The position numbers and the translations under genes are program-made. Shown in pieces: positions 31,118-54,342 of a stretch of DNA of 55,829 nt. The stretch's first letter is position 1, and each line of letters opens with the position of its first letter. The notes beneath the pieces were generated by a model. That model searched no databases, was not told the origin of the DNA, and saw only the letters and a list, made by a program, of their open reading frames with translations. Location of the stretch: the NCBI GenBank assembly GCA_017448245.1, contig JAFSLV010000005.1, positions 1 through 55,829 of the forward strand, in the 5' to 3' direction. Origin of the DNA: Lachnospiraceae bacterium (lineage in GTDB: Bacteria > Bacillota > Clostridia > Lachnospirales > Lachnospiraceae).

Positions 31118-31136
31118 GGCGTCCCCTTCTCTTTCC

Positions 31137-32357: not shown

Positions 32358-32397
32358 GTACATGCTTCCTTACGTGCAAATGTCCATGCCGCCTTCT

Positions 32398-32430
32398 GTG
32401 CAAGCACAACGGCTGCATGGCCGCTTGCAC
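32398..32430. other. Inverted repeat between exporter genes
   Basis: GTGCAAGC and GCTTGCAC (8 bp, exact) lie 17 bases apart in the 76-base gap between the permease stop and the ATPase start. No T-run follows, so it is more likely an mRNA hairpin than a terminator. Confidence 0.4.
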
Positions 32431-32433
32431 GGG

Positions 32434-34512: not shown

Positions 34513-34516
34513 GTCT

Positions 34517-36813: not shown

Positions 36814-37889
36814 ACGTGATACATCGATTCGTAATACTGCTGGTAAGCGCCGCTTGTGACGTGGGCCATCCACTCCTCATGCTCAAAATACCAGCGGATC
36901 GTTTTGCGGATGCCCTCGGCGAACATCGTCTCCGGTTCCCAGCCGACCTCTTTTCTGATCTTGTCCGGTGCGATCGCGTACCGCCTGTCATGTCCCTTGC
37001 GGTCCTCCACATAGGTGATCAGGTCGTACGTCAGATGCGCGCGTCTCTGATCGTCTTCCGGCAGCTCTTCCTTCAGAATATCGATGATGGTCTTTACGAT
37101 CTCGATGTTTTGTTTTTCATTATGACCGCCGACATTGTACGTCTCGAACAGCCTGCCCTTTTTGATGACCATGTCGATCGCGCGGGCGTGGTCTTCGACA
37201 TAGAGCCAGTCGCGCACGTTTTTGCCGTCTCCGTAGACGGGAAGCTTTTTACCCTCGAGCGCATTATGGATCATCAGGGGAATCAGCTTTTCCGGAAACT
37301 GGTAGGGTCCGTAATTGTTGGAGCAGTTGGTGATATTGGCGGGAAAACCGTAGGTCTCCATATAGGCCCTGACGAGCAGGTCGCTGCCCGCCTTGGACGC
37401 GCTGTAGGGAGAGCGCGGCGCATACGGCGTATCTTCATAAAAATATCCTTCGCCCTCGGGGAGCGAGCCGTAGACCTCGTCGGTGGAGACATGCAGAAAC
37501 TTCTTGCCTTCCGGATAAGTGCCGTCTTCTTTTTCCCATGCGGCGCGCGCGGCATTGAGGAGCGTCGCGGTGCCGAGCACGTTGGTCCGGACAAAGACTT
37601 CCGGATCCGTGATCGAGCGGTCGACGTGGGACTCCGCCGCAAAATGCACGACCGTGTCGATGTCATTTTCCGCAAAGATCCGGCTGACCGCCTCCTTATC
37701 CGTGATATCCGCCTTGACAAACGTATAATTGTCGCGCGTCTCGATTTCTTTTAAATTTTCCGGATTGCCGGCATAGGTGAGCGCGTCCGCGTTGATGATG
37801 CGGATGTCGTCTCCGTAGGTACGGAACATGTAATGGATGTAGTTGGCGCCGATAAATCCGGCGCCGCCCGTCACCAGAAAGGTGGTCAT
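36810..37889 (-). CDS. rfbB: dTDP-glucose 4,6-dehydratase
   Basis: A 359-residue extended short-chain dehydrogenase. It makes dTDP-4-keto-6-deoxyglucose. LVTGGAGFIGANYIHY is the NAD loop, HVSTDEVYGSL carries the catalytic Thr-Asp-Glu and YSASKAGSD the Tyr-x3-Lys pair. The start at 37889 has AAAGGGG six bases ahead, 11 bases after the lysozyme stop. rfbD, which would finish dTDP-rhamnose, is not in the window. Confidence 0.96.
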   Translation of the reverse strand: MTTFLVTGGAGFIGANYIHYMFRTYGDDIRIINADALTYAGNPENLKEIETRDNYTFVKADITDKEAVSRIFAENDIDTVVHFAAESHVDRSITDPEVFVRTNVLGTATLLNAARAAWEKEDGTYPEGKKFLHVSTDEVYGSLPEGEGYFYEDTPYAPRSPYSASKAGSDLLVRAYMETYGFPANITNCSNNYGPYQFPEKLIPLMIHNALEGKKLPVYGDGKNVRDWLYVEDHARAIDMVIKKGRLFETYNVGGHNEKQNIEIVKTIIDILKEELPEDDQRRAHLTYDLITYVEDRKGHDRRYAIAPDKIRKEVGWEPETMFAEGIRKTIRWYFEHEEWMAHVTSGAYQQYYESMYHV

Positions 37890-37900
37890 ATATATCCCCT

Positions 37901-40510: not shown

Positions 40511-40577
40511 TACAAAATGCCTCCTGCATTGTGTGACGGCAGCCCCTTACGAAACCGCCTGCATCACATACAGAGTT

Positions 40578-40606
40578 ATTTTACCATTTTTAGGCATATG
40601 TTGCAA
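40578..40606 (-). promoter_or_regulatory. Promoter of the lysozyme/rfb operon
   Basis: Leftward -35 TTGCAA (40601-40606) and -10 TAAAAT (40578-40583), 17 bp apart, about 65 bp before the lysozyme start. Confidence 0.7.
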
Positions 40607-40621
40607 GTTTTTCGGGATTTT

Positions 40622-40638
40622 TGCGACACATATGTCAT
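40622..40638. promoter_or_regulatory. GACA-N4-TGTC operator-like site before the lysozyme promoter
   Basis: TGCGACACATATGTCAT lies 15 bp upstream of the -35 box. It matches 10070-10086 (TGCGACATTAATGTCAT) at all positions except three or four in the centre. Position upstream of a weak -35 box suggests an activator. Confidence 0.5.
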
Positions 40639-40689
40639 TTTCTTCGGGGTTGCTTTTTCCTTCTCCCGCGGCGGAGGCAAAAGACCTCC

Positions 40690-41019
40690 TCAGCCCAGAT
40701 GAAAGAGCAGGATGCCGCAGAGGATGAGGAGCATGCCCAGGAAGCGCTTCCCGGTAAAGCGCTCCCGGAAGAAGACGATGCCGGCAAGGAACACCAGCAC
40801 GTAGCCGACCGGCTCGATGGTGACGGTCTGCATATAGCCCAGGTACCGGTAACAGACGAGCATCAGCAACAGACAGATACCCAGCAGCGCGTAGCCTCCC
40901 ATCACAAAGGGATTGAGATATTCCTTCCATTTTGACGCGTATTTCCTGCGTGCGCTCAGCTTGAGCAGCATCTGGGAGGCGCAGGCGAGGCACTGACAAA
41001 AGAAGGCCAGGAGCATCAT
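40690..41019 (-). CDS. Small DMT-superfamily membrane protein (ArnE/EmrE-like), second of pair
   Basis: A 109-residue protein with four hydrophobic helices, starting MMLLAFFCQCLACASQMLLK and ending FRERFTGKRFLGMLLILCGILLF. GGAGG lies seven bases before the ATG at 41019. This size and topology match half-type drug/metabolite transporters such as ArnE/ArnF, which flip lipid-linked amino sugars as a heterodimer. The partner is the gene just upstream, overlapping by four bases. Substrate not known. Confidence 0.72.
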   Translation of the reverse strand: MMLLAFFCQCLACASQMLLKLSARRKYASKWKEYLNPFVMGGYALLGICLLLMLVCYRYLGYMQTVTIEPVGYVLVFLAGIVFFRERFTGKRFLGMLLILCGILLFHLG

Positions 41020-41450
41020 GGCGCTTCCTCCTTTCCCCGTCCGGCTCCGTCCTGTCCGTCCTCCGCCTCCTCCGTGCGGTTCCCCGCATTCATGAGGACG
41101 GTGCCCGCAATGATGAGCAGGAGCGCACAAACCTTGGGAAGCGTCACGCGCTCCGCAAAGAGGACCACGCTCCACAGAAGCGCCCAGACGAGCCCCACGG
41201 CCTTGCCGGCGTAGGCGACGCCGATATCGATTTTTTTGATCGCCTGCTGCCAGATCAGCGCATAGACGCCGAGGAAAAAGACCTCCGCAAAGAGCCACGC
41301 AAAAAACGGCACCGAGAACGGTGCGGCGGCGCTTGCGTATTTGCCGCAGACCGTATTGATGCTGTAGAGAAATACCGCACCCTGCAAGATCAGAAGAACG
41401 CGCAGGGAGGTTCTGTTTTGATTGCCCCGGATCCTCTTCTCACCGTTCAT
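41016..41450 (-). CDS. Small DMT-superfamily membrane protein (ArnF/EmrE-like), first of pair
   Basis: A 144-residue protein with four helices (VLLILQGAVFLYSINTV, WLFAEVFFLGVYALI, AVGLVWALLWSVVLF, ALLLIIAGTVLMNAG) flanked by charged ends. The motif DIGVAYAGKAVGLVWAL resembles the membrane-signature region of EamA half transporters. It overlaps both neighbours by four bases. With its partner it probably forms a heterodimer that flips an undecaprenyl-linked sugar. Confidence 0.72.
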   Translation of the reverse strand: MNGEKRIRGNQNRTSLRVLLILQGAVFLYSINTVCGKYASAAAPFSVPFFAWLFAEVFFLGVYALIWQQAIKKIDIGVAYAGKAVGLVWALLWSVVLFAERVTLPKVCALLLIIAGTVLMNAGNRTEEAEDGQDGAGRGKEEAP

Positions 41451-42199
41451 TGCGTACTCCTGTAGATCCGGTATCCGCCGACGGCATCGACCGGTTCCCA
41501 GCCGTACACGGAAGGATCCGCGTCGATGTTCCTGTTTACGTGCAACACGAGATAATCGACCTGTTGTTCCCGCATCAGCCGGTCGAGCGTGCGCATCCGC
41601 ACGGGACCCTCCGCGACATAGGCTTCATGGATCTGATTGAAGCGGTGCATCGAAGGATCGATCTCCCCCCGGCCGAAGGCAAGCAGGATATCGACATCGT
41701 ATTGCCGAACCTCGTGCACCATCTCCGGAGGAAATACCGCCGTCAGCCTGCCCTCTCCGTAATCCGCCCTCAGTGCGTCGCACACGTCGATCACGATCTG
41801 CGGCAGATGGTAGACATTCTGCGCGCGCGTCACATGTACCGAGCGGTAGACGATGCGTCCGCCCGTGACAAAGAGCACGATCATGAGCAGATAGGCGATC
41901 CTGCGGTGCGAGGCAAAGATCCGCACCCCCGCATAGACGATCGTAATCCCGAAGGGAACGAGCCACAACAGCCGGTAATACGTCGCCTGCTCGTCGAGCA
42001 TCGCGCGGTAGAGATATGTAACGGGCGGCAGGAAAAATAAAACGAGCAGCACAAGCGGCGCATGCAGGAGGACGGTCCGCTTCCACGGCTCTCTTTCACT
42101 GCGCCACAGATACAAAAACGCGGGGATATACAGCGCAAAGAGGAAGCCCTCTCCCGCATATCTCAAAAGCGTCTGGATATTTTCCCGCAATAATGACAT
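41447..42199 (-). CDS. Membrane protein, unrecognised
   Basis: A 250-residue protein with about four helices in the first 115 residues and a soluble C-terminal domain (LVLHVNRNIDADPSVYGWEP, ending VGGYRIYRS). The end domain resembles the extracellular tail found in some GT-C family or O-antigen-ligase-like proteins. The gene starts three bases after the next upstream membrane gene, and the two together look like one GT-C protein split in two: an 8-9 helix half and a tail half. No catalytic motif is clear. Confidence 0.5.
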   Translation of the reverse strand: MSLLRENIQTLLRYAGEGFLFALYIPAFLYLWRSEREPWKRTVLLHAPLVLLVLFFLPPVTYLYRAMLDEQATYYRLLWLVPFGITIVYAGVRIFASHRRIAYLLMIVLFVTGGRIVYRSVHVTRAQNVYHLPQIVIDVCDALRADYGEGRLTAVFPPEMVHEVRQYDVDILLAFGRGEIDPSMHRFNQIHEAYVAEGPVRMRTLDRLMREQQVDYLVLHVNRNIDADPSVYGWEPVDAVGGYRIYRSTQ

Positions 42200-42202
42200 C
42201 TC

Positions 42203-43294
42203 TTACTTCAGCCTCATATACAAAAGGATATAACACACATTGGGCACACAGGACAAAATCCCCGGCAACAGCGCCCCCATGCGTCTTTGCTTCAGTGCGT
42301 ATAACAATGACAGCAGCAGGATCTCTCCCGCGGCGAGCACCACGCCCATCGAGGTGCACATGCCGGCAAAGCAGTTGATAAGTACGAGCGTCAGAACCGC
42401 GCCGCGCACGTCCCCCGCGCGCGTCCCCTGCCCGTCCGCGGCCCTTTGCGTATCCTCCGCAAAGAATGCGCAAAAGACGAGCAGGATCATCGGGAGCACG
42501 AGATTGCCCATCATGGCCTTTCCCTGCCAGGTACGTGTGAGAAAAAATGTCTCCGTCGTATAGATCGAGGTATTGCCCGTCACCTGGAAGATGGCAAGCA
42601 GCGAAAGAAACACCGGGAGCAGGGTTTCGTCTTTTTTGAAGAGACTCTTTCCGATCCCGTAATAGACCAGATACGTCAAAGGAATCAGAAAGACGGGCAG
42701 CACCGTGTGCGCAATGATCGTCGCGTGGATCCCGCTTGCCCTTGCGACAAAGGCTTCCCACATCGGAATCACAGCCAGCGCATGGCGGATGTCGAGGCGG
42801 GCGGACTCGCCCGTATAGGGGACATAATTGTACATCGTGCCGGTCTTTTCGCTCATGAGCGATTCGACGACATAGAAGGCATCGTCCCCGTCAAAGGAAG
42901 CATATGTCACCGCAAGAAAGAGCTGTGCAAAAAGCACCGCAAAAAAGAAGAGCCAGCACAGCGCGGTTGCGGGATCCGTGCGCAGCAGGCCTGCGGTGTC
43001 CGGCAGCTTCAGCGGTTTTTTGAAAAACAGTACAAGGAGTCCCGCGATGCCCAGTGCCGCGAGCACCACGCAATAGGTCCGGAAGGTCTGTTCAAAGGAG
43101 ATAAAGACATTGCCGAAAAAAAGAAAATAAAGCGCACACAGATCAAACGCAAACCAGTCGAGCAGTACGCCGAGGAGAAACGTCCTGTGGAGCGTTCTCT
43201 TTTCTTCGGGAAAGAAGAGCACGGGAAGACATCCGGACAAAAACGGCGCAACCAGCAGGATTGCGATGAGCCAGACGATACCGGCCCGCATCAC
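42203..43294 (-). CDS. Polytopic membrane protein, DUF6077-like
   Basis: A 363-residue protein with nine or so hydrophobic helices. A loop has YASFDGDDAFYVVESLMS, an acidic pattern like the first loop of GT-C glycosyltransferases, and another has YTTETFFLTRTWQGKAMMGN. It resembles the Firmicutes DUF6077 family. It may use a polyprenyl-phosphate sugar made by the adjacent GT2, but the family has no proven role. Overlaps the GT2 stop by four bases. Confidence 0.6.
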   Translation of the reverse strand: MMRAGIVWLIAILLVAPFLSGCLPVLFFPEEKRTLHRTFLLGVLLDWFAFDLCALYFLFFGNVFISFEQTFRTYCVVLAALGIAGLLVLFFKKPLKLPDTAGLLRTDPATALCWLFFFAVLFAQLFLAVTYASFDGDDAFYVVESLMSEKTGTMYNYVPYTGESARLDIRHALAVIPMWEAFVARASGIHATIIAHTVLPVFLIPLTYLVYYGIGKSLFKKDETLLPVFLSLLAIFQVTGNTSIYTTETFFLTRTWQGKAMMGNLVLPMILLVFCAFFAEDTQRAADGQGTRAGDVRGAVLTLVLINCFAGMCTSMGVVLAAGEILLLSLLYALKQRRMGALLPGILSCVPNVCYILLYMRLK

Positions 43295-44244
43295 GCTTCC
43301 TCTCTGTTCCGTGCGGCGTGCATCCTGCTGTTTAAGGTATTGAGCCGGTATTCAAAGGTCCTGCGGTGACTGGTCGCCATGCTCGAGAGGATGACGCCCG
43401 CAAAGAAACACTGGAGTGCGGCGATCATCGTAAAGCCGCAGACGATCAGCGTGGGAAATTTCTCCACCATGCCGGTTTCCCGGAAAGCGATCAGAACGGG
43501 GATCATAAAGCCCGCCGCCAGCGCCGCAAGGAGCAGCGCGATCGTCGTGAAGAATCCGAAGGGCTTGTAATCGCGGTACAGACGGAAGATCGTGCTGAGC
43601 ACCTTCATACCGTCGCTGTAGGTATTGAGCTTGGAGACCGATCCTTCCGGACGGTCCCTGTATTCCACGATGACATTTTCGATCTGCAGATTGTTGTTGA
43701 CCGCATGGATCGTCATCTCCGTTTCGATCTCAAAGCCCGTGCTGAGCACGGGGAACGTCTTGACAAATCCGTAGGAAAAGGCGCGGTAGCCGGTCATGAT
43801 GTCGCGGATGTTGCAGCGAAACAGACGGTTGATCGCGTGCTTGACCAGCGAATTGCCGAAATTGTGAAACGGGCGTTTATTTTCCTGATAATAGGTCGAG
43901 GAGAGACGGTCGCCGACGACCATGTCCGCGCCACGCGTCAGAACGAGATCCGCCATCTCCCTTGCGCTCTCGAGAGGATACGTATCGTCGCCGTCGATCA
44001 TGATATAGCATTCGGCTTCGATCTCGCGGAACATCCTGCGTATGACATTGCCCTTCCCCTGGCGGTACTCGTAACGGATGACGGCGCCCGCGTCCCTTGC
44101 GGTCTCCACCGTCTTGTCCGTCGAATTGTTGTCATACACATAGACGACCGCTTCCGGCAGTGCGCGCTTCGTGTCCGCCACCACCTTGCCGATCGTCTTT
44201 TCTTCGTTATAACAGGGGATCAGTACCGCGATCTTATCCATCAT
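43291..44244 (-). CDS. Polyprenyl-phosphate-type GT2 glycosyltransferase (DPM1-like)
   Basis: A 317-residue protein. The catalytic domain shows IAVLIPCYNEEKTIGKVV, VYDNNSTDKTVETA and the acidic IDGDDTYPLE; DIMTGYRAFSYGFVK is typical of dolichyl/undecaprenyl-phosphate mannose or glucose synthases. Two C-terminal membrane helices follow (ALLLAALAAGFMIPVLIAF and the next). It likely makes a lipid-phosphate sugar that the flippase-like pair turns over and the GT-C-like proteins use outside. This chain of steps is inferred from gene order. Confidence 0.85.
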   Translation of the reverse strand: MMDKIAVLIPCYNEEKTIGKVVADTKRALPEAVVYVYDNNSTDKTVETARDAGAVIRYEYRQGKGNVIRRMFREIEAECYIMIDGDDTYPLESAREMADLVLTRGADMVVGDRLSSTYYQENKRPFHNFGNSLVKHAINRLFRCNIRDIMTGYRAFSYGFVKTFPVLSTGFEIETEMTIHAVNNNLQIENVIVEYRDRPEGSVSKLNTYSDGMKVLSTIFRLYRDYKPFGFFTTIALLLAALAAGFMIPVLIAFRETGMVEKFPTLIVCGFTMIAALQCFFAGVILSSMATSHRRTFEYRLNTLNSRMHAARNREEA

Positions 44245-44262
44245 CCGTGCAGAAGACCCCGC

Positions 44263-44559
44263 TTATTCCCTGTAGGAGGCAAGCTTTTCGTTGAGTGCCG
44301 CCGCCACTTCCTCCGCGTCGATCCCGTGCACCATGCAGGCCTGCTCGAGCGACTCCATCTGGGAGGCCGGGCAAAAGAGGCACTCCATGCCGATGTCCAT
44401 CAGAAACTGCGCGGCAATCGGATGCTGCGAGATGATGTCGACGATCAGCATGTCCGTCGTTACTTCGTCCGCGGGTACATCGCCCGCCCTGACCGCCGCG
44501 CGATGCGCCTCGGCGGCATTTTCTTCTTCCGAACCGAATAATATGTCTTTGATGCTCAT
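44263..44559 (-). CDS. DUF1858-domain protein
   Basis: About 98 residues from the ATG at 44559, which has GGAGG seven bases ahead; an in-frame ATG at 44604 with AGAGG is an alternative. The C-terminal 60 residues are a DUF1858 domain: DMLIVDIISQHPIAAQFLMD, then IGMECLFCPASQMESLEQA with the Cys-x-x-Cys pair typical of the family, sometimes linked to hybrid-cluster enzymes. The N-terminal part is acidic. The partner enzyme is not in the window. Confidence 0.75.
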   Translation of the reverse strand: MSIKDILFGSEEENAAEAHRAAVRAGDVPADEVTTDMLIVDIISQHPIAAQFLMDIGMECLFCPASQMESLEQACMVHGIDAEEVAAALNEKLASYRE

Positions 44560-44658
44560 GGTGCTCCCTCCGGTCGCAGCAAGTGCTTCGTCCTGTTTGC
44601 TCATACCGTGTGTTCCTCTGTATGGCTGCTTTTTTCCTTCCTATATTTTACATGATGT

Positions 44659-46110
44659 TCACAGTGCCTGCAACACGGCGCAGATATATTCGTACGTACG
44701 TTTTGTCGACGGCACGTTCAGCCGCTCCCTCGCGGAGTGGATATCCTCCATGTCGGGGCCGATCGAAACACAGTCAAGCCCTTCGATCTTTTCCGCGAAA
44801 AATCCGCACTCGACGCCCGCGTGGATCGCCTCGATCCGGGGTTCCTTGCCATAGAGTCCCGTGTAGACCTTTTTCATCACGTCGCGCAGCGGCGATTCCG
44901 CGAGATAGCGCCAGCCGGGATAGTCCCCCGTCACCTCCGTGACGGCACCAACGCTCTTTGCGATCATCCGCAGCCGGTCGAGGAGATGATCCTTTGCGCT
45001 GGCGACCGAAGAACGCACGGCATACGCAAGCGTCATCATGTTTCTTTCCGTATCGGTGCGCAGGACGCCGAGATTGAGCGACGTTTCGACGAGTCCCTTC
45101 ACCTCCGCGCTCATCGCCTCGACACCGTCCGGCAACGAACAGATCAGCTTGATCGCGTGCTTCATGGAGGATTCGTCAAAGCAGTCAAAGGTACCCGTGC
45201 CGTCCATGGTAAGTATGACCTTCAGCCCCGGATCCTTTCCGGACAGCTCCGCCGCGATCTCCTTTTCGATTTTTCCGACGGTTTTTTGCAGCTCCGCTTC
45301 CCCAGTATCGGAAGGCACGATCAGGAGGGCCTTCGCCTCCGAAGGAATCGCGTTGTCCGCCTCTCCGCCGTTCATCGAGATCAGTGAAAAGTCCGCCTTT
45401 TCCTTGCGGTAGAGTTCATAGAGGATGCGCGCAAGCAGCACGTTGGCATTGCCCCTCTCCTCCCCGATCATGACGCCGGAGTGTCCGCCGAGCAGTCCCG
45501 TCACCGTAAGCGATGCCCTGCGTCCGCTGCGCTTGACGCGCTCATACATGAAGCGCGCGTGAAATCTTGCGCCGCCAGCACAGCCCGCAAGGAGTGTCCC
45601 CTCCTCTTCCGAATCGATATTGATCAGACGCTTTCCCCGCAATACGGCAGCATCGAGGGCACGTGCGCCGTCCATCCCGGTCTCTTCCTCCGTCGTGATC
45701 ACGACCTCGAGCGGAGGATGTGCCAGGTCGTCCGCGTCGAGGATCGCCATGCAGATCGCGACGGCCACGCCGTCGTCTCCGCCGAGACTCGTTTTGTCCG
45801 CCCATACCCATTCCCCGTCGGTCATGACCCGCAAGGGCGTCGTTTTCATGTCGATCGCGGGATCGGACGACACCGCCACCATATCCATATGTCCCTGCAG
45901 GATGACCGGAGGCTTGTCCTCGTATCCTTTGCTTCCCTTCTTTTTGATGATCACGTTGCGCGCCTCATCCTGTATCACCTCGAGATGTCTCTCTTTTGCA
46001 AAGCGCACCAGATGATCACTGATTTGCTCTAAGTTTCCGCTGCCGTGCGGAATCGAGCACAGCTCCTCAAAGAATCCCCATACCGCCTTCGGTTCGAGTG
46101 TCTCAAGCAT
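44659..46110 (-). CDS. pepD: Aminoacyl-histidine dipeptidase (M20 family)
   Basis: A 483-residue zinc dipeptidase. VILQGHMDMVAV has the first metal His and Asp, ADKTSLGGDDGVAVA the bridging Asp, and VVITTEEETGMDGA the catalytic Glu with a metal Glu. Length is that of bacterial PepD (carnosinase-like). It cleaves dipeptides, often Xaa-His. Its ribosome binding site lies in a sequence that is a tandem copy of the region just after the carrier protein stop. Confidence 0.94.
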   Translation of the reverse strand: MLETLEPKAVWGFFEELCSIPHGSGNLEQISDHLVRFAKERHLEVIQDEARNVIIKKKGSKGYEDKPPVILQGHMDMVAVSSDPAIDMKTTPLRVMTDGEWVWADKTSLGGDDGVAVAICMAILDADDLAHPPLEVVITTEEETGMDGARALDAAVLRGKRLINIDSEEEGTLLAGCAGGARFHARFMYERVKRSGRRASLTVTGLLGGHSGVMIGEERGNANVLLARILYELYRKEKADFSLISMNGGEADNAIPSEAKALLIVPSDTGEAELQKTVGKIEKEIAAELSGKDPGLKVILTMDGTGTFDCFDESSMKHAIKLICSLPDGVEAMSAEVKGLVETSLNLGVLRTDTERNMMTLAYAVRSSVASAKDHLLDRLRMIAKSVGAVTEVTGDYPGWRYLAESPLRDVMKKVYTGLYGKEPRIEAIHAGVECGFFAEKIEGLDCVSIGPDMEDIHSARERLNVPSTKRTYEYICAVLQAL

Positions 46111-46190
46111 TTTTGTAATTCCCCTCCTTTGTGGTTGCCCGCTTCTGACAGCAACGGTTGTTCTGTAAGGTCTCCTGTTTGACTGCCCGC

Positions 46191-46433
46191 TTATGACAGA
46201 TACGGCGCAATCATCTCCGCGATCCTGTCAACGGACGCAAAACGCTCCGCGTTGATATCCGCGGGCTGCAGCTCGATGCCAAAAGTCTCTTCGATCATGG
46301 TGATCAGTGTCATCACCTCGAGCGAGGAAAGAATCCCGTCATCGACCAGGTCCTGTTCCTTTGCATAATCGACGCCGTCGTTGATCTCCCGTAACAATGT
46401 AATGATCTTTTCTTTTGTCTCACGCATGTTCAT
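46191..46433 (-). CDS. Phosphopantetheine carrier protein
   Basis: An 80-residue helical protein of the acyl/peptidyl carrier family. The attachment site is S37 in DDGILSSLEVMTLI, where the usual D-S-L is replaced by S-S-L. The following helices (MIEETFGIELQPADI, ERFASVDRIAEMI) are standard. It resembles DltC and other discrete carriers rather than fatty-acid ACP. Start overlaps the ligase gene end by 14 bases. It should carry the residue activated by that enzyme. Confidence 0.85.
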   Translation of the reverse strand: MNMRETKEKIITLLREINDGVDYAKEQDLVDDGILSSLEVMTLITMIEETFGIELQPADINAERFASVDRIAEMIAPYLS

Positions 46434-47997
46434 CCATTCCTGTCAGGCGTCTGAGCGCCGCCCGGTCCGCCTTTCCGTTTTTATTGAGCGGTATGTGTTC
46501 CACATACCGTATGACTCCCGGCAGCATATAACGCGGGAGCTTTTCCTTCAGTGCGCTCCGGACGCGTCCGGTATCCGCAACGCCTTCCTCCGCAAGTACG
46601 ATTTTCGTTCCCGCTTCGTCATACAGGCAACAGGCTCTTGCGACCCCTTCGACGGATTCCGCCGCACGCTCGATTTCAAAGAGCTCGATCCGGTGTCCCA
46701 TGTGCTTGATCTGAAAATCTCTCCTGCCGCAAAAGAAGAGGCGGTGTGCGTCGTCATATCTGCCGATATCACCCGTGCGGTAGATCCGCTCCTCATACAG
46801 ATCGTTGACTGGATTGCGCACAAAGGCTTCCGTGCCGGCCTCTCCGAGATATCCGATCGCAAGGCAGGTGCCCGCCACACAGATCTCTCCCTGCCTGTTA
46901 CTTTCCGTAACAAGGCGGTCTTCGTCATCGAGCAGAAAGACCTTTTTGTTGCGAAACGCAATGCCGACGGGCACGTCATCCGCGGGAATATCCTCTTCCG
47001 TAAGCACGTGATACGTGCAGTTGCAGGTGATCTCCGTCGGTCCGTACGCATTGACAAAAGTGACGTCCGGATATACTTCGTGCCAGTGCATCCGGTGCGT
47101 CTTTGGCAGCGCCTCTCCGCTGTAGATGATGCGCCTTAAACGTTCCATGCGCGCAAGGGAGAGTCCCTTCATGACGGAGAGGACGACGAGCGCGCTCGCC
47201 GCCCAGATGAGGATGCTCACATCGTGTGCGGCGAGGAATCCCGTGAGTGCCGTGGGATTCATAAAATACTTTTGCGGGATCAGTGCGACCGTCGCGCCGA
47301 GATACAGCGCGCTGTACAGGTCCTTGACCGATACGTCAAAATCAAGCGGCGCCTGATTGCCAAAGACATCCTGTTCCGTCAGCCCCATGGTTTCCGTAAA
47401 CACGGGAATAAAATCCGTCACGGAGCGATGTCCGATCAGTACGCCCTTGGGCGTGCCGGTCGAGCCGCTTGTAAAATTGCAATACATCGGCGCACTGTCC
47501 GTTAAGGCCTCGCGGATTGCGGGAAGCGGATCGTTCTGCTCCTCATCCCTGCTGTCTTTGGCGGTATCTGTCCGCGAATCCGCCTGCGGTTCATTGTCAC
47601 GCATGCACCGCGTCAGATCGATGAGACGAACGGACATGTCGCGGAAACGCTCGCCTGCCTGTTCCACGCTTGCACTGTCGCACAAAATCACCTTTGCGCG
47701 GAGCGTTTCAACCATGGCGCGCGCACGCGGTGCGGGATGTCCCTTGTCGATCACGCTGTAAAAGGCACTGGCATAGAGGACGCCGAGCATCGCGGCAAAC
47801 GTATGACAGGTCTTGTCCGCAAAGATCGCGACCGCGCCACCCGCGACGTCTTCTTTTGCGAGAGCCCTGCCGACACAACGCGCATATTTCGCAAGCGCGG
47901 CATACGTCATCCTTCCCTCCGGATCGATCACGGCGCATTTCTCCGGGATTCTTTTTTCCTGTGCCTCGAGCCAGTCGAGGACGGTAAGAGCCTGCAT
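46420..47997 (-). CDS. AMP-dependent adenylation enzyme (DltA/NRPS A-domain type)
   Basis: A 525-residue stand-alone adenylation enzyme. The ATP loop NFTSGSTGTPKGV, the aromatic motif FVNAYGPTE, the YRTGDIGRY hinge and the final catalytic Lys in NKNGKADRAALRRL are all present. It is closer to DltA and amino-acid A-domains than to acyl-CoA ligases. It probably loads an amino acid on the carrier protein encoded next. The dltB and dltD genes are absent, so this is not a standard teichoic acid D-alanylation system. Substrate cannot be read with confidence. Confidence 0.85.
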   Translation of the reverse strand: MQALTVLDWLEAQEKRIPEKCAVIDPEGRMTYAALAKYARCVGRALAKEDVAGGAVAIFADKTCHTFAAMLGVLYASAFYSVIDKGHPAPRARAMVETLRAKVILCDSASVEQAGERFRDMSVRLIDLTRCMRDNEPQADSRTDTAKDSRDEEQNDPLPAIREALTDSAPMYCNFTSGSTGTPKGVLIGHRSVTDFIPVFTETMGLTEQDVFGNQAPLDFDVSVKDLYSALYLGATVALIPQKYFMNPTALTGFLAAHDVSILIWAASALVVLSVMKGLSLARMERLRRIIYSGEALPKTHRMHWHEVYPDVTFVNAYGPTEITCNCTYHVLTEEDIPADDVPVGIAFRNKKVFLLDDEDRLVTESNRQGEICVAGTCLAIGYLGEAGTEAFVRNPVNDLYEERIYRTGDIGRYDDAHRLFFCGRRDFQIKHMGHRIELFEIERAAESVEGVARACCLYDEAGTKIVLAEEGVADTGRVRSALKEKLPRYMLPGVIRYVEHIPLNKNGKADRAALRRLTGMDEHA

Positions 47998-48065
47998 GGG
48001 ATCTGTCTTCTTTTCTTTATCTGTTTCCGATGTTTCCTTCGATGCTTCTTGCGGCGTATGCCCTT

Positions 48066-48884
48066 TCAGTCCCTGCAGACCTCATAGCCTCCGCCAAACA
48101 AATAGTCCCGGTCAATACTGAAATCCAGATATCCCTCGCACCTGTCCGTTGTGAACAGGCGATACAGGGCGGGATATGCCTTTTTCATATCCACGCTGTA
48201 GAGCGGGACACCGTCCGCTTCGGTCCGGAAGGACGCGCCGTTTTCTTCAAGAATACGCGCCAGCCCTTCCTCGTGTTTGGTATAGGTGAGGCTGTAATCG
48301 CGTGCGGCATAGAGAAAGGTGCGTTCCATGGTCTTACCGTTCTCGTCCGTGTAGCTGCCGGTAAACCGCTTGGTAAAACGATACGGCACCCGTGCCTCCA
48401 CCTCGACCTCATGCACAAAGGTCGTAGCCTTTCCGTATGCGGACAGTCCGATGCCGATCTCCCTTGCTCCCCTTTCGATCATCAGGGCAAAGGGCGTGTC
48501 CTTCCCGAAGGAATTTAGATTGTCCATCTCCTGCAGTGTCCCCGCTTCCCTGCCCCACACCATCAGCGAGTGGATCGGATGACGCGTGCGGACAAAGTCA
48601 CTTCTCTCCATCGCGACATTGGCCAGATGTCCGACACTCGATTTGGAATGCCGGATGTCATAGCTTCCCTTATTGCTGAAATCAAAATTATAGGCGGGGA
48701 TGAGAAGCGTTCCCTCGTTTGTCACCCTGCGCTGCAGCGCATCGATCAGCTCGTCGGGTTCAAAAACCTCTCCTCTTTTTTTGGCCCTCCACATGGGGAG
48801 CAACAGTTCGGAAGATACATAGATCATTTCTCCCGCACGGATGTCGAGCGGTGTAAGCAACGGGTCGCAGTCAAAGCTCTTCAT
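48066..48884 (-). CDS. AAC(3)-family N-acyltransferase
   Basis: A 272-residue protein of the Antibiotic_NAT family (PF02522 type), which acylates amino groups using acyl-CoA. The blocks VSSELLLPMW, TLLIPAYNFDFSNKG, RTRHPIHSLMVWG and SFGKDTPFALMIERGAREIG are typical. Members in glycan gene clusters modify amino sugars rather than drugs. The start overlaps the DUF4910 stop as ATGA. With a carrier protein and an adenylation enzyme next to it, the acyl donor may be carrier-bound; this is inference. Confidence 0.82.
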   Translation of the reverse strand: MKSFDCDPLLTPLDIRAGEMIYVSSELLLPMWRAKKRGEVFEPDELIDALQRRVTNEGTLLIPAYNFDFSNKGSYDIRHSKSSVGHLANVAMERSDFVRTRHPIHSLMVWGREAGTLQEMDNLNSFGKDTPFALMIERGAREIGIGLSAYGKATTFVHEVEVEARVPYRFTKRFTGSYTDENGKTMERTFLYAARDYSLTYTKHEEGLARILEENGASFRTEADGVPLYSVDMKKAYPALYRLFTTDRCEGYLDFSIDRDYLFGGGYEVCRD

Positions 48885-50200
48885 AGGCGCTCCATCAGAC
48901 CGTGTGCGCACAGCTCCTCAACGATCGGCAACAGTGCGCGCACCGGCGCATGGACGAGACGGCTGATGTCGAAGAGATCGTTTTTGCCATCCGCATACGC
49001 AATGAGCGCCATCATCGTTTTGACGCCGCCGTAGCTGTTCTTTTTGGACTCCGTGGGATACAGACCTCTCTTTCCGAGCTGCGGTTCGCACAATACCGTC
49101 GTGCGGTAGTATGCGTTGTGCTCGAGTCCGTCGATCCATTCCTTCATCACGTCAAAGGCGCCCTGAAACCCCCGGGGGGAGACAAGATCGAGATTATCCG
49201 CGGAGGTATGATACTCCGGATAGACGCCGTGTCTCGTCCTGCAAAAAGCGACCACCGGCAGATCGATGCCGGGCGCGTTGTATTGTCTTTCGTCCGAGCC
49301 CCTGTCGAGAAAACTATATGCATGTACACCGGGCCGGTCCGCCAGCACGGCAGCCAGCGTGCGGTCGGTAAAAGTGTCCGCGTATTTGGTATGAATGATC
49401 GAATAAGCCCTGTCGTCCCCGACACAGGAGAGCACGACGCCCGCCTTTACATGCGATTGCAGATGCGCCCGGTGCGTCGAAAGATACGTGATCGCGCCGA
49501 TCGTCTCTGGATTCAGGACAAAGCGGTACGTGTAGCGTCTTTTCTCCATCGAGCAGACGTAGCGGACGAGCTCCGTAAGAAGTGCGGGGCCCGAGCATTC
49601 GTTGTTGGCCATCGAGGGATGGCAGGTATAGGAGGTGATCAGAATCTCCTCGTCACTGTCGCCCGGCAGTACCAGATCCGCTATCGTCATCGATCCGTCG
49701 AACAGCTCGCTGTCGATCACCATCCGGTAATCTCCCTCCGGCAGCGCATCCAGTTGGTTTTGACTCATGCAAAAGCCGAAGCGTTCTTTGTAATAAGATG
49801 TCACGTACGGGATGACGTCCGGCTGGTCCTCCTGTGTATAGACATACTGACGGAGCTCTTTCAGCGGTACGATGCAATCGACGCTTGTCGCATACCCGAG
49901 GACATGCAGATTATGTTCTTTGATATCGATGACATGATGTCCCTTTTCGTCCGCAATGTAGGCCTCGCGGATGCGCCACTCCTTTGGCACCGTCCAGTCA
50001 AAGACCTTCGTCCCCGTCGGCACCTCCGTGATCGCAAATTGCACGCCGCAATCCGCAAGGGATTCGTTGAGAACGGCAAGTGTCTGCCGCACGCCCTCTC
50101 CGGTGATGCTGCGAAACAGGGGAAAAATGCGTGAAGCGAGCGCATAGATCCGCCCGCCTTCACGCACTTCATTTGTATGATCATTCACAGATTGAGTCAT
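48881..50200 (-). CDS. DUF4910 (M28-like aminopeptidase-fold) protein
   Basis: A 439-residue protein. Residues about 60-360 have a zinc-aminopeptidase-like pattern: ITSYTCHPSMANNECSGPALL has the His and Asn/Glu of the metal region, LNPETIGAITYLS follows, and FLDRGSDERQYNAPGIDLPV and GVYPEYHTSADNLDLV supply other ligands. The C-terminal end is a winged-helix-like part. DUF4910 proteins recur in sugar-modification clusters. The ATG (50198-50200) shares its first base with the rplT stop TAA, and there is no ribosome binding site, so translation depends on ribosomes that finish rplT. Confidence 0.82.
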   Translation of the reverse strand: MTQSVNDHTNEVREGGRIYALASRIFPLFRSITGEGVRQTLAVLNESLADCGVQFAITEVPTGTKVFDWTVPKEWRIREAYIADEKGHHVIDIKEHNLHVLGYATSVDCIVPLKELRQYVYTQEDQPDVIPYVTSYYKERFGFCMSQNQLDALPEGDYRMVIDSELFDGSMTIADLVLPGDSDEEILITSYTCHPSMANNECSGPALLTELVRYVCSMEKRRYTYRFVLNPETIGAITYLSTHRAHLQSHVKAGVVLSCVGDDRAYSIIHTKYADTFTDRTLAAVLADRPGVHAYSFLDRGSDERQYNAPGIDLPVVAFCRTRHGVYPEYHTSADNLDLVSPRGFQGAFDVMKEWIDGLEHNAYYRTTVLCEPQLGKRGLYPTESKKNSYGGVKTMMALIAYADGKNDLFDISRLVHAPVRALLPIVEELCAHGLMERL

Positions 50201-50556
50201 TACGCGATTTTCGTCTTTGCCAGCTCCGCAAGGGACTTGAATCCGTCGGGATCGGTGACGGCGAGATCGGCGAGCATCTTACGGTTGATGTCGACACCGG
50301 CCTCCTTGAGTCCGTGCATCATGTTGCTGTAGGAGAGCCCGTTCATGCGGGCCGCCGCGTTGATACGCGTGATCCAGAGCGCACGCATGTCGCGCTTTCT
50401 CTGCTTGCGTCCTGCATACGCGGTGTTGAGCGCGCGCATCACGGACTGCTTGGCCACGCGGTACTGTTTGGAACGGGCGCCGCGATAGCCCTTGGCGAGC
50501 TTTAATACTCTTTTATGTCTTTTCTTTGCGCCGATGGCGCCTTTGATTCTGGCCAT
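50200..50556 (-). CDS. rplT: 50S ribosomal protein L20
   Basis: A 118-residue basic protein, standard length. It binds 23S rRNA early in assembly and, in Firmicutes, represses its own operon at the infC leader. [20 protein letters not shown] and [20 protein letters not shown]-like blocks are clear. The stop codon TAA overlaps the start of the DUF4910 gene by one base. Confidence 0.98.
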
Positions 50557-50595
50557 GTTCTTTTCCTCCTGACTGTTTTCTTCCGGGGCTTACGA

Positions 50596-50796
50596 TCAGA
50601 CGTAGGGTAAGATTCTCTTCATTACCTTGGCATTGGTCTCGTCCGTCACGCATGCCTTGCGCAGATTCCTCTTACGCTTCGTCGTCTTCTTCGCCAGAAT
50701 ATGGCGCTTATACGCTTTGTTTCTCATCAGCTTGCCCGTGCCGGTGACCTTGAAGCGTTTGGCAGCGGACTTTTTTGTCTTCATCTTCTGTTGCAT
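50596..50796 (-). CDS. rpmI: 50S ribosomal protein L35
   Basis: A 66-residue basic protein. [20 protein letters not shown] and [15 protein letters not shown] are diagnostic. GGAGG seven bases ahead of the ATG at 50796 supports a start four codons upstream of the usual [11 protein letters not shown]. Second gene of infC-rpmI-rplT. Confidence 0.98.
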
Positions 50797-50818
50797 GATG
50801 CTCCTCCTTCTATAGATT

Positions 50819-51340
50819 CTATTTTCCCGACTTTTCGGTCAGGAACATCGTCATCGTACGGCCCTCCACCTTTGGCTGGCGGTCGATGACGGCGATATCC
50901 TCGAGTGCCTTGGCAAAATCCGTCAGAATATGGACGCTTGCGCCCATGTGTGCCATCTCCCTGCCGCGGAAACGCAGTGTCACCTTGACGCGGTTGCCCT
51001 TTTCGAGAAATTTGCGGGCGGCGCTCATCTTGGTGTTGAGATCGTTGGTGTCGATATTGGGCGACATCCGGATCTCCTTGATTTCCACGGTGCGCTGCTT
51101 CCTGCGCGCTTCCTTTTGCTTGCGCAGCTGCTCGTAACGGAACTTGCCGTAGTCGACGAGCCGGCAGACCGGCGGATTGGCGCCCGGTGCGATCTTGACC
51201 AGATCGACCTCCGCCTCCTCGGCCCTCCGGAGCGCTTCCTCGATCGGCATGACGCCGAGCTGCTCGCCGTCCGTTCCGATCACGCGTACTTCTTTGTCGC
51301 GGATCTGCTCATTGATAAAAAATGTGTCTCTTTGTGCGAT
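50819..51340 (-). CDS. infC: Translation initiation factor IF-3, probable AUC start
   Basis: About 173 residues. [14 protein letters not shown] near the start, [20 protein letters not shown] in the linker and [15 protein letters not shown] are diagnostic. No ATG stands near the expected start. AAGGAGGT ends eight bases before an ATC codon at 51338-51340, which gives the sequence (M)[11 protein letters not shown] of normal length. Rare start codons (AUU, AUC, AUA) are known for infC and let IF-3 control its own synthesis. An ATG 24 codons upstream lies in the leader and across the attenuator stem, so it is unlikely. Confidence 0.93.
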
Positions 51341-51550
51341 CTCCCTATACCTCCTTGTTGTGCGCCCGGTGACCAAAAAAAAGTAAGGCCGCCGCTTGCG
51401 CAACCGCCTCACATGATCATCCGCTCATAACACCTGCCGGGCGTCTCCCGCCGGTCCCGGTGTCTTACGTATGAACGCCCTTCGCTCGCCTTGAGTTGCC
51501 TGCGGCTCGGGGGTGAGGACAATCGTCCTGCTTGCTGCCCGAGTATAGTA
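51341..51550 (-). ncRNA. infC leader RNA, L20-leader-like
   Basis: About 200 bases between the promoter and infC form a structured leader. Long-range pairs such as GGGCGT with ACGCCC and ACACC with GGTGT can be drawn before the attenuator stem. This is the position and general layout of the Firmicutes L20 leader that binds L20 to switch transcription. I assign it by context and stems, not by alignment. Confidence 0.5.
51375..51410 (-). terminator. Attenuator hairpin in the infC leader
   Basis: GAGGCGGTTGC-GCAA-GCGGCGGCCTT forms an 11-pair stem with one mismatch and a GNRA-type GCAA loop, followed by ACTTTTTTT. It lies about 25 bases before the infC ribosome binding site, so it acts as a conditional terminator. 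Confidence 0.7.
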
Positions 51551-51573
51551 TCACATTCCCCTGCGGTTGTCAA
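51545..51573 (-). promoter_or_regulatory. Promoter of infC-rpmI-rplT
   Basis: Leftward -35 TTGACA (51568-51573) and -10 TACTAT (51545-51550), 17 bp apart, with TG at the extended -10 region. Repeat R5 begins one base upstream of the -35 box. Confidence 0.7.
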
Positions 51574-51574
51574 A

Positions 51575-51637
51575 CCGGTCAAAGGGGACGGTTCTCCCTG
51601 GCTTGTTTCCGGTCAGTCGGGACAGATCCCAGGGGGC
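51575..51637 (+). repeat. Dispersed repeat element, copy R5 (plus orientation)
   Basis: GGTCAAAGGGGACGGTTCTC, spacer CCTGGCTTGTTTCC, then GGTCAGTCGGGACAGATCCC. It lies between the infC promoter and the deoB stop codon. Confidence 0.78.
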
Positions 51638-51656
51638 ACACGTCCCGTGCGGGCCC

Positions 51657-52874
51657 TCACCGCAGCAGCTGCAACATCGATGTGCCTATGGTTCCCTCAG
51701 GCATCGCGACCCCGAAGTTGTCGCAGATCGTCGCACCGATACAGGCAAAGTTTTCCTGCTCCGGCAGCGCCGCAGCCGCCGCGTCCGTAACCCCGGTGAA
51801 CGAAGGCGAGTACGCGATAAAGGGTACCTTTTCCCTTGTGTGGTCGGTATGCGCGGTATTGGTCGGATCGTTGCCGTGGTCGGCGGTGATGATCAAAAGA
51901 TCATCGTCCTTGAGAAGCGGAAGCATCTCGCCGAGCTTGACATCAAAACGCTCGATCTCCTCGCCGTACCCCTGCGGGTTTCTCCGGTGTCCCCAGAGCG
52001 CGTCAAAATCCACGAGGTTGGTAAAACAAAATCCCTTCCAGTCGTCTCTCTTGCAGATTTCGATCGTCTGCTCCATGCCGTGTACGCTCGATTGTGAGTG
52101 CTCGGACCAGGTGATCCCCTCGCCGTCAAAGATGTCGACGATTTTGCCGACGGCAAGCACGTCGTATCCCGCTTCCTTTAAAGCGTCCATCGCGGTCTTT
52201 CCGAAGGGCTTGACGGCATAGTCGTGGCGGTTGGCCGTGCGCTTGAACTCGCCCTTCTTTTTTCCGACGTAAGGTCTTGCGATCACGCGCCCGACCTTCC
52301 ACTCGTCCTTCATCGTTAGCTCTCTCGCGATCTCACAGCAGCGGTAGAGATTTTGTAAGTCAAAGGTCTCTTCATTGCCGCAGATCTGCAGGACGGAATC
52401 GGCGGACGTATAGACGATCATCTTGTCGCCCTCGTTGATCTCCCGCTCCGCAAGCTCCTCTAAGATCTCCGTGCCGCTCGCGGCCTTGTTGCCGATGACC
52501 TTTTTTCCGCAGCGCGCTTCAAGCTCCGCAATGAGCTCCGGCGGAAAGCCCGTATCCGTAAAGGTGATGAAGGGCTTGACGGTTTCTAAGCCCATAAATT
52601 CCCAGTGGCCGGTCATCGTGTCCTTACCTGCGGATTTTTCGACCAGCGGACAATAATACGCAATCGGGCGCTCAACCTTTGCGACCTTGTCCATCGGCTT
52701 TAAGTTGCCGATGCCCATCTTTTCCAGATTGGGTATATGAAAATGATCGACCGTCTCCGCGATATGTCCGAGCGTGTCCGCTCCGAGGTCGCCCTTAAAC
52801 TTATCGGCATCCGGGCCGTCCCCCATCCCCATCGAGTCGCATACGATCACGAAGATTCTGTTAAACTTTCCCAT
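51657..52874 (-). CDS. deoB: Phosphopentomutase
   Basis: A 405-residue alkaline-phosphatase-superfamily enzyme. It interconverts ribose or deoxyribose 1- and 5-phosphate in nucleoside use. [14 protein letters not shown] and [11 protein letters not shown] supply metal-binding Asp and His; [11 protein letters not shown] holds the catalytic Thr region. The start at 52874 (MGKFNRIF) has AAAGGAG ahead. A role with psuG and cdd in nucleoside salvage is plausible, though they are not in one operon. Confidence 0.96.
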
Positions 52875-52925
52875 CTTTCGCACTCCTTTGTTATGATTTG
52901 CCTGTCTGCTTTTGATCCGCAAGTA

Positions 52926-53045
52926 TCAGGACAACCTCCTGAATGGTTCTCCGACAACCGCTTTATCCCACGCCTCTTTGATCTCGTCATGGTAGTCTTC
53001 GCAAAAATAGTTCCGCCATTCCTTTATCTCCCGTAATGTATCCAT
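52926..53045 (-). CDS. Small ORF, 39 residues, unrecognised
   Basis: It reads MDTLREIKEWRNYFCEDYHD and ends with AVVGEPFRRLS at 52926. The composition is protein-like (charged, amphipathic, Trp/Tyr). No strong ribosome binding site is seen. The ~47 bases upstream of its ATG are a near copy of those before the small gene at 55396-55632, so the pair may be related or share control. Could be a remnant. Confidence 0.4.
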   Translation of the reverse strand: MDTLREIKEWRNYFCEDYHDEIKEAWDKAVVGEPFRRLS

Positions 53046-53090
53046 TTTACCACAGCCTGACTCCAAAAGAAACGGGGCGCCTGCGCTTCA
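53044..53090. repeat. 47-bp upstream repeat, copy 1
   Basis: Shares about 41 of 47 bases with 55639-55685. The core on the plus strand is TTTTACCACAGCCTG, then CTCCAAAAGAAAC and CTGCGCTT. It lies directly before the 39-residue ORF. From 53093 to 53340 I find nothing convincing. Confidence 0.65.
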
Positions 53091-53340
53091 CGGTTAAGAA
53101 AGGGCCGCCTGCCACGGTGCTGCATATCATCCGTCTCGCTTAGTTGCGCCGGACACTCCGGCAAGCCCGAAGACGTCATCCTTTCGCGCAACAGCGCTCA
53201 GGATCACCGGTCTTGCCTGCGTGGCGCAAAATGCACTCGCCGGACGATATGACAGACACCGGGCGCGGCGGCCGTCAACGTCGTGAATATGCGACCTTTT
53301 CCTGTCCCTTGTACCTTACCTGTGGATACCTTGGGAAGGA

Positions 53341-54342
53341 TTATTCAAAAGGTCTGAAACCGAGCAGATAATTCCGTTGAGATACATATTGTCTGAAATT
53401 TTCATCCATGCCGGCGAAGACTACGTCTTCCTTCGTGTAAAAAACCGAGCCGTCCTCTTCGACAAACTCATAATACCATCCGACATCTCCGCCAAGATTC
53501 ATATACTCGTAATTTAATTCATTCAGATCCTCTATGGTGTATGACTTCCCTTTTATCTCGAAAAACGCCAAATATCCGTTACGAAAAGTTTCCGTATTCT
53601 CATGTTCTTCCCCGCTTTCATCTGTCCATGTATATGTTCTTTCACCGTCCGTCACTCCGTCTTTGTATGGATATTCCGTTACGCTCTCGCCGCCGTCCCC
53701 GGATAATGTCCTGCTTTCAAATGTGCCGTTCGGCAAATCGTTTACCCACGTACCGCTCATGATCTGATAGTAGTTTTCATATCCTTCAAAGGAGTCGGCT
53801 TCCATCCAGACACCGTTTCCCTCTCTCTGATCGCCGGCGTAGTCACCGTAATAGATAAAGTAGTCGCCGACAAAAATCGTGGCGCTGCCGTTCGCGTGAT
53901 ACATCCCGATCCTGCCGTGCTCCGTCTGCACGATCAGACGGTCCTCGCCGGATGCTTCCAGCGCCTTTGCCGCCTCTTCATACGCGGGGTCTGTCCGCAT
54001 AATGTCGCAGGCCTCTGTATATTTTTCCTCCGCGCACAATGCCGCGATGTCGACAAGCACACCCTCGTCGACACGCTCGATCCCGTACTCTGCAAGCTCT
54101 GCTTCAAGTGCCGCTTCCGCCGCCGCGGCTTCCTCTTCCGCTTTCCTTGCGGCTTCTTCTTCGGCTTTTCTTGCGGCCTCCGCCGCCGCTTCCTCCGCGG
54201 CCTTTGCCTCTTCCTCCGCAAGACGGCTTGCTTCCTCCGCCGCCTGCTGTGACGCGGCAGAGTTTGCTCCGCCACCGCAGCCGCCAAGCACAAGTGCGGT
54301 GCTCATCAGTAACATGGCAAGATAACGTATTTTCTTTTTCAT
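53341..54342 (-). CDS. Lipoprotein with Ala/Glu coiled coil
   Basis: About 333 residues from the ATG at 54342, which has GGAGGT four bases ahead. The lipobox LVLGGC puts the lipidated Cys at 22. A coiled-coil stretch of A/E/K/R repeats (EEAARKAEEEAA-type) runs to about residue 85. The outside part has a MORN-like turn (YYGDYAGDQREGNGVWM) followed by more Gly/Asn/Asp turns and ends in RNYLLGFRPFE. Function unknown; a surface spacer or scaffold is possible. The leader before the ribosome binding site carries the hairpin GCGGTGCG/CGCACCGC (54360-54391). Confidence 0.72.
   Translation of the reverse strand: MKKKIRYLAMLLMSTALVLGGCGGGANSAASQQAAEEASRLAEEEAKAAEEAAAEAARKAEEEAARKAEEEAAAAEAALEAELAEYGIERVDEGVLVDIAALCAEEKYTEACDIMRTDPAYEEAAKALEASGEDRLIVQTEHGRIGMYHANGSATIFVGDYFIYYGDYAGDQREGNGVWMEADSFEGYENYYQIMSGTWVNDLPNGTFESRTLSGDGGESVTEYPYKDGVTDGERTYTWTDESGEEHENTETFRNGYLAFFEIKGKSYTIEDLNELNYEYMNLGGDVGWYYEFVEEDGSVFYTKEDVVFAGMDENFRQYVSQRNYLLGFRPFE

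Follow-up and report, generated by a model that had tools for sequence, protein, structure and literature searches.

The window analysed here is a 55,829-nucleotide stretch of a Lachnospiraceae bacterium (contig JAFSLV010000005.1), in which a cassette of four genes lies on the minus strand directly behind the ribosomal genes infC-rpmI-rplT. The cassette encodes a DUF4910 protein, an AAC(3)-fold acyltransferase (AAC), a stand-alone adenylation enzyme (the ligase) and a carrier protein. We suggest, with slightly more belief than doubt, that it N-aminoacylates an amino sugar of the cell surface, with pseudaminic acid (Pse) or one of its precursors as the likeliest acceptor, by exchanging an existing acyl group for an aminoacyl group. 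The broader claim, a role in the acylation of surface amino sugars, is very probable.

The reading frames of all four genes are intact. The DUF4910/DUF2172/HTH_47 protein (48881..50200, 439 aa), with the M28-like fold of the Cj1295/CA_C2195 family and proposed to be a sugar N-deacylase, exceeds the cut-offs of all three Pfam families (PF16254, 303.8 vs 26.6; PF09940, 117.2 vs 27; PF16221, 76.8 vs 27.1; the scores are given in the order DUF4910, DUF2172, HTH_47). Its solved relative is PDB 3k9t (E 1.3e-101). The AAC gene (48066..48884, 272 aa counted from its ATG; the open reading frame as listed starts further upstream, at GTG 48911) encodes the proposed carrier-to-sugar aminoacyl transferase and scores 78.6 bits on PF02522 against a cut-off of 25. 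On the NCBIfam equivalog for AAC(3) resistance enzymes it reaches only 39.1 vs 270, and a role in aminoglycoside resistance was therefore rejected. The ligase (46420..47997, 525 aa) scores 206.1 on PF00501 (AMP-binding; cut-off 29.9) and 311.8 on the amino-acid adenylation model TIGR01733, slightly below the cut-off of 317.4. The carrier (46191..46433, 80 aa) scores 26.9 on PF00550, above 20.8.

In the mechanism that we infer, the adenylation enzyme would activate an alpha-amino acid with ATP and load it onto the pantetheine arm of the carrier. The DUF4910 protein would remove an existing N-acyl group, probably the N-acetyl group that ends up on N5, and so free the amine, to which the AAC(3)-fold enzyme would then move the aminoacyl group from the carrier. 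Enzymes of the AAC(3)-fold family use a pantetheine thioester on coenzyme A, and the carrier arm would take that place. FdhC was dropped as an AAC(3)-fold precedent, being a GNAT enzyme. The residues that such a route would need are kept: Ser37 of the carrier is present in 51/51 aligned sequences, and AAC has His167 in 54/55 and Glu170 in 55/55, a pair that we take to be catalytic. The Asp preceding the carrier serine is found in 50/51 sequences and is a Ser in the window.

A survey of relatives reveals that the gene set is not peculiar to this genome. One genome per species was used and the best 80 of at least 578 DUF4910 relatives were kept, so the survey is a sample of close relatives. Neighbours were called with purpose-made profiles and thresholds, and 31 of the 80 loci have less than 5 kb on at least one side; 14 further loci bring the total to 94. 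Four loci (L131, L135, L163 and L164) were treated as repeats of others, and they are left out of the residue alignment and kept in the survey counts. Within 6 kb of DUF4910, AAC is present in 50/80 loci and a carrier in 48/80. The acyl supplier varies: the ligase is found in 16 loci, another type of acyl-AMP ligase in 4, FkbH in 6, FkbH together with MaoC in 2, and MaoC in 12. All 16 ligase-type loci contain both AAC and carrier, a co-occurrence with DUF4910 and ligase that exceeds chance. The gene order of the window recurs in 8 of the 94 loci (L068, L117, L126, L130, L138, L147, L148 and L149). The initial annotation had proposed both a survey of this neighbourhood and a route from ligase and carrier via AAC to an amine of a sugar or lipid; the cassette does recur, and its context supports the route to a sugar amine. 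No paper on the four-gene set was found in the open-licence literature.

Five loci (L063, L120, L125, L143 and L150) have a second supplier type beside DUF4910, consisting of the other acyl-AMP ligase, a carrier and a distant AAC. Four of them also contain a cyclase-like and an aldolase-like gene, named by eye.

Among the genomes of the order, PF16254 is over its cut-off in 16/392, or 15 after setting aside one weak match (G117, 29.6 bits). Within the genus, 6/79 genomes have a DUF4910 relative, the window genome counted. In three of the congeners (L068, L205 and L207) AAC, ligase and carrier adjoin DUF4910. In a fourth (L208), PseC is beside DUF4910, AAC is 5 kb off, and a carrier and a weak ligase match are 9 kb off, while in the fifth (L206) the stretch with DUF4910 ends at a contig end.

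The link to Pse comes from the same comparisons, and a Pse-type acceptor appears reasonably probable. The genome of the window encodes PseF, PseG and PseI together on contig C27, PseC on C21 and PseB on C16, all over curated cut-offs, as well as five flagellin-type matches over cut-off. Pse genes are found in 4/8 of the same-order loci: L068 (PseB), L138 (PseB, PseC, PseI and PseG), L147 (PseF and a partial PseC) and L148 (PseC, PseF, PseI and PseG). In L138 they enclose the cassette, in the order PseB-PseC-DUF4910-AAC-ligase-carrier-PseI-PseG. Within 10 kb, 9 of the 16 ligase-type loci have at least one Pse gene and 7 have at least two; when at least 5 kb is available on both sides, these numbers are 6/8 and 5/8. 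PseI is over cut-off in 76/392 genomes of the order and in 8 of the 15 with DUF4910 (G000, G360, G238, G296, G305, G318, G385 and G239), an association with an odds ratio of 5.2 and p 0.0028 (p 0.008 without the window genome), kinship being uncorrected. In addition, cj1295 is reported to correlate with Pse genes across 16,130 genomes (PMC13130089). At L103:705-1766 of the own genome, a membrane part that looks GtrA-like by eye is fused to a PseH-like acetyltransferase domain.

The supplier types differ in this respect. A Pse gene accompanies both ligase types in 12/20 loci and the FkbH/MaoC types in 2/20 (Fisher p 0.0011, for a grouping chosen afterwards and loci that are related). The same module might act on another acceptor, and the rarity of Pse genes beside FkbH and MaoC speaks for this. 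The candidate in the window is an amino sugar of the surface glycan encoded at 24.9-44.2 kb. That locus (24935-44244) lies on the same strand beyond pepD and a DUF1858 gene, and contains rmlA/B/C-like genes, a Wzm/Wzt-type exporter, a methyltransferase, glycosyltransferases, a GH25 protein and DUF6077. In L058/L163 the locus that holds DUF4910, ligase, carrier and AAC also has rmlA, rmlB, DUF6077 and an orf41447 relative, and in the flagellin of C. difficile glycine is attached to N3 of Fuc3N (PMC5207245). However, a scan covering part of the open reading frames of the window glycan locus recognised no gene for amino-sugar synthesis, and Pse genes are present in the own genome and beside half the same-order cassettes. 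We consider this acceptor rather unlikely, and favour Pse.

Within the proposed exchange, deacylation by DUF4910 is a tentative assignment that we hold at a little less than even. The family (CA_C2195) is described from the structure 3k9t and from gene neighbours that include an aminosugar N-acetyltransferase and a carrier, and a role in sugar modification is proposed, through either transacylation or deacylation with distinctive residues (Das 2014, PMC4000134). The Campylobacter jejuni Cj1295 mutant lacks 5-N-dimethylglyceroyl Pse, so Cj1295 is needed for a new N5 acyl group, and its hypothesised role is cleavage of the 5-acetamido group; the AAC-like Cj1296/7 is off in both C. jejuni variants (Hitchen 2010, PMC3068675). 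Seven residues are invariant in the 93 aligned DUF4910 sequences: Cys193, His194, Glu232, Asp303, Glu304, Arg305 and His331. The zinc ligands of 3k9t are His189, Asp195 and His324, and both histidines are kept in 93/93 sequences.

The initial annotation had the DUF4910 protein trim or edit the product. It more likely acts before the transfer, by removing an acyl group as proposed for Cj1295 (PMC3068675). A related alternative is that the protein clears carrier loaded with a wrong aminoacyl group, by editing or release, or that its substrate is the finished amide. The M28-like fold with a zinc site (PMC4000134) would suit this. So would the fusion of AAC and DUF4910 in a single frame, seen ten times (9 distinct loci, with 2-8 residues separating the two matches), as it fits an action on the same intermediate; these fusions also count in favour of the proposed exchange itself. 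An AlphaFold model of one natural fusion (L164, 8 rows) was too poor to use, with a mean predicted local distance difference test score of 61.2 and a predicted template modelling score of 0.51. However, suppliers as unlike as ligase, FkbH and MaoC fit a common action on the sugar side better than the editing of one donor. Further, the new acyl group disappears when Cj1295 is lost, rather than a wrong one getting through (PMC3068675). Editing is therefore improbable, and we retain deacylation ahead of transfer as the working assignment.

Several observations weigh against the exchange on Pse. The zinc ligand Asp195 of 3k9t aligns with Asn200 in the window protein, and the M28 catalytic residues, described as lost in 3k9t, are replaced here as well; according to Das 2014 (PMC4000134), which describes that loss, deacylation would require distinctive residues. 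Asn200 and the following Glu are kept in 15/15 DUF4910 sequences found independently of the scan seed; their frequency in the 93-row alignment is biased because both belonged to a scan seed. In the available parts of PMC4000134 and PMC3068675, DUF4910 has a structure and one mutant phenotype and no demonstrated reaction. No acyl supplier was recognised in 40 of the 80 survey loci, a class in which AAC is present in 11/40 and a Pse gene in 13/40. Beside the window cassette no Pse gene was recognised, although such genes are recognised in relatives such as L138 and L148. The PseH-like domain on C16 is below cut-off (72.2 vs 93.1), and 7 of the 15 DUF4910 genomes have no PseI over cut-off.

The donor is likely to be an amino acid. 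The specificity residues of the ligase, located and numbered via motif anchors, form about six patterns among 24 rows. The window pattern, D-V-K..I-S-A-C-N, fits those of L138, L147 and L136 (D-V-K..M-S-L-C-N). A tree sets these four apart by a branch with 100/100 support, although the window and L136 have long branches, and a warning from the program is that sequences may be joined falsely. The equivalent of Asp235 is present in the window ligase by this numbering, and it is absent from six rows, which suggests a donor other than an alpha-amino acid for those. The specificity residues gave no firm call of the amino acid; the Lys at the equivalent of position 239 presumably recalls glutamate codes.

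The initial annotation pointed out that the ligase and the carrier resemble DltA and DltC, but the resemblance is only distant. The window ligase scores 240 vs 476 and 227.4 vs 559.85 on two DltA models, and the carrier 38.7 vs 68 on DltC. The absence of dltB and dltD noted there is true of the locus but not of the genome, since a complete dltABCD operon is found on contig C17 (L217:5418-9597). Its DltA scores 529.7 vs 476 on the first model and 512.7, below 559.85, on the second; DltB scores 444.3 vs 375, DltC 70.9 vs 68 and DltD 301 vs 150. The window ligase is 27% identical to this DltA, and the window carrier 28% to this DltC. The distant similarity, and the presence of DltB and DltD in the genome, could be taken to mean that the window genes D-alanylate a cell-wall polymer in the manner of Dlt, with DltB and DltD acting in trans. 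However, on C17 these two already have a DltA and a DltC beside them, and the window proteins score far lower on the same models. Dlt-type alanylation was thus rejected, and we regard it as highly improbable. DltB-family (MBOAT) matches occur in ten places in the genome, and nine of them score below the cut-off for DltB; genes for O-acylation at the surface may thus be numerous.

The position of the cassette is unusual within the genus. The DUF4910 ATG shares the last base of the rplT stop (TAATG), and no Shine-Dalgarno sequence was seen for it. The overlap is 4 bases (ATGA) between DUF4910 and AAC and 14 between ligase and carrier, all as initially described. Of the further claim that the four genes run on from rplT without a gap, the order holds but not the gaplessness, as 68 bases separate AAC and ligase. 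Upstream are rplT (50200..50556), rpmI (50596..50796) and infC (50819..51412, listed from an upstream GTG, so that its true start is uncertain), identified by sequence and, for the latter two, by synteny in congeners; all are on the minus strand. A promoter-like minus-strand site (51545..51573, 10/12 matches, a pattern match only) precedes infC. Downstream, an 80-base spacer (46111..46190) leads on the same strand to a pepD-type dipeptidase gene (44659..46110) and then to genes for DUF1858, GT2 glycosyltransferase and DUF6077 proteins; the intervals between these four are 54, 18 and -4 bases.

We found rplT in 39/41 genus genomes and obtained the locus for 30, namely the window and 29 congeners. 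In 22 of the 29 congener loci pepD is next after rplT, at a distance of 93-201 bases. A hairpin with a T run is found within 200 bases of the rplT stop in 28/28 scored congener loci, the 29th (L044) having been left out because its rplT match stopped short. The same script found none after the window rplT, nor in the carrier-pepD spacer. The cassette therefore occupies the place that the rplT-pepD spacer with its terminator has in congeners, and the fusion to rplT in this genome looks real but derived. A search at E 1e-6 of the sequence downstream of rplT in congeners (14 stretches, 13 spanning 20 kb and one 4.7 kb) found the GT2, DUF6077 and orf41447 genes in none of them, so both flanks of pepD-DUF1858 differ here. 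Further along the minus strand, an intergenic hairpin followed by a T run next occurs behind the orf41447 gene, at 41324-41309.

Judged from sequence, it is plausible that the cassette, alone in the place of spacer and terminator, is co-transcribed with infC-rpmI-rplT. Clean read-through is opposed by terminator-like minus-strand sites inside the DUF4910 gene (49502-49490 and 49268-49249) and the ligase gene (47784-47770), from a looser scan that gave 14 sites on both strands vs 5.5 in shuffles, and by a promoter-like minus-strand site inside DUF4910 (49235-49208, 9/12), from a scan with 4 sites vs 2.9 in shuffles. A minus-strand hairpin with a T run at 51405-51387, near the listed infC start, is perhaps a leader attenuator; an Rfam leader search of window positions 44000-53400 gave no match up to E 1.

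The initial annotation suggested that coupling to the ribosomal operon would scale decoration with growth; as a general design, this coupling is not supported. Neither rplT nor pepD is within 6 kb of DUF4910 in any of the 80 survey loci, or matched at any score over the 94. None of the other five congener DUF4910 stretches contains rplT, and in the three congeners that carry the cassette it lies at another site. The link to rplT thus looks specific to this lineage and is known from one lineage and one assembly. Selection of the fusion as a means of tying sugar decoration to the making of ribosomes could be argued from the overlap with the rplT stop, from the missing terminator and from the tight gene run that continues into GT2 and DUF6077. 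However, the case comes from one genome and one assembly, the link is absent from all surveyed relatives, and the Pse genes are dispersed over the contigs of this genome, so chance placement of the cassette suffices. Selection is quite doubtful. The junction is nevertheless a clear example from nature in which a cassette for sugar modification occupies the place of the terminator of a ribosomal operon.

The GC content of the cassette is 50-58%, vs 39-44% in five related loci measured, and the other window genes are at 55-60%. At third codon positions it is 0.67-0.68. Ten other genes were measured, of which seven are at 0.73-0.77, while tsaD is at 0.69 and one glycosyltransferase at 0.68. The cassette thus looks ameliorated, and a fresh foreign origin by base composition was rejected, its GC being near that of the other window genes. 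The species itself is at 52-57% (own stretches L099-L103) vs 35-46% in congeners (L085-L098). A 34-base direct repeat (46124-46205, 79% identical, 48 bases apart), spanning the 3' end of the carrier gene and the carrier-pepD spacer, is perhaps a trace of cassette insertion.

It can be speculated that DUF4910, AAC and carrier form a general plug-in acyl exchange for surface sugars with interchangeable suppliers (amino-acid ligase, FkbH or MaoC), whose ligase version makes aminoacylated nonulosonic acids of several specificities and was captured here by infC-rpmI-rplT, with decoration following ribosome production. Taken as a whole this is unlikely. If acyl exchange is true, it explains the many acyl groups on one sugar skeleton, which vary bacterial surface chemistry. 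Since the cassette is compact, with four proteins, and both its donor type and its acceptor are predicted, the reaction could be reconstituted in vitro.

Chemistry and gene set are of a known, poorly understood kind, since sugar modification by the family was already proposed (Das 2014, PMC4000134). What is new is that the supplier is of the adenylation type and that infC-rpmI-rplT has captured the cassette, this second point resting on a single lineage and a single assembly. The CA_C2195 family described there shares with the window the three-domain protein and a nearby aminosugar N-acetyltransferase and carrier. However, in the text consulted the ligase named is an ATP-grasp aminoacyl ligase and not an adenylation-type one, and the position behind rplT is not mentioned. 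Cj1295, presumably a PF16254 member, likewise belongs to an aminopeptidase-like polysaccharide-biosynthesis family, adjoins PseB/PseC and serves a new N5 acyl group on Pse, although this group is di-O-methylglyceroyl and not an amino acid (PMC3068675). The window shares the Pse pathway in the genome with this type of modification, but not adjacency to the Pse genes. In Dlt, too, a stand-alone enzyme adenylates an amino acid and the small carrier is a protein of its own, but the acyltransferase there is a membrane MBOAT protein, whereas the one proposed here has the AAC(3) fold. A chemical precedent within the Firmicutes is the flagellin of C. botulinum, with an N5 amino-acid amide of the nonulosonic acid legionaminic acid (cited in PMC5207245), although the sugar is a different one.

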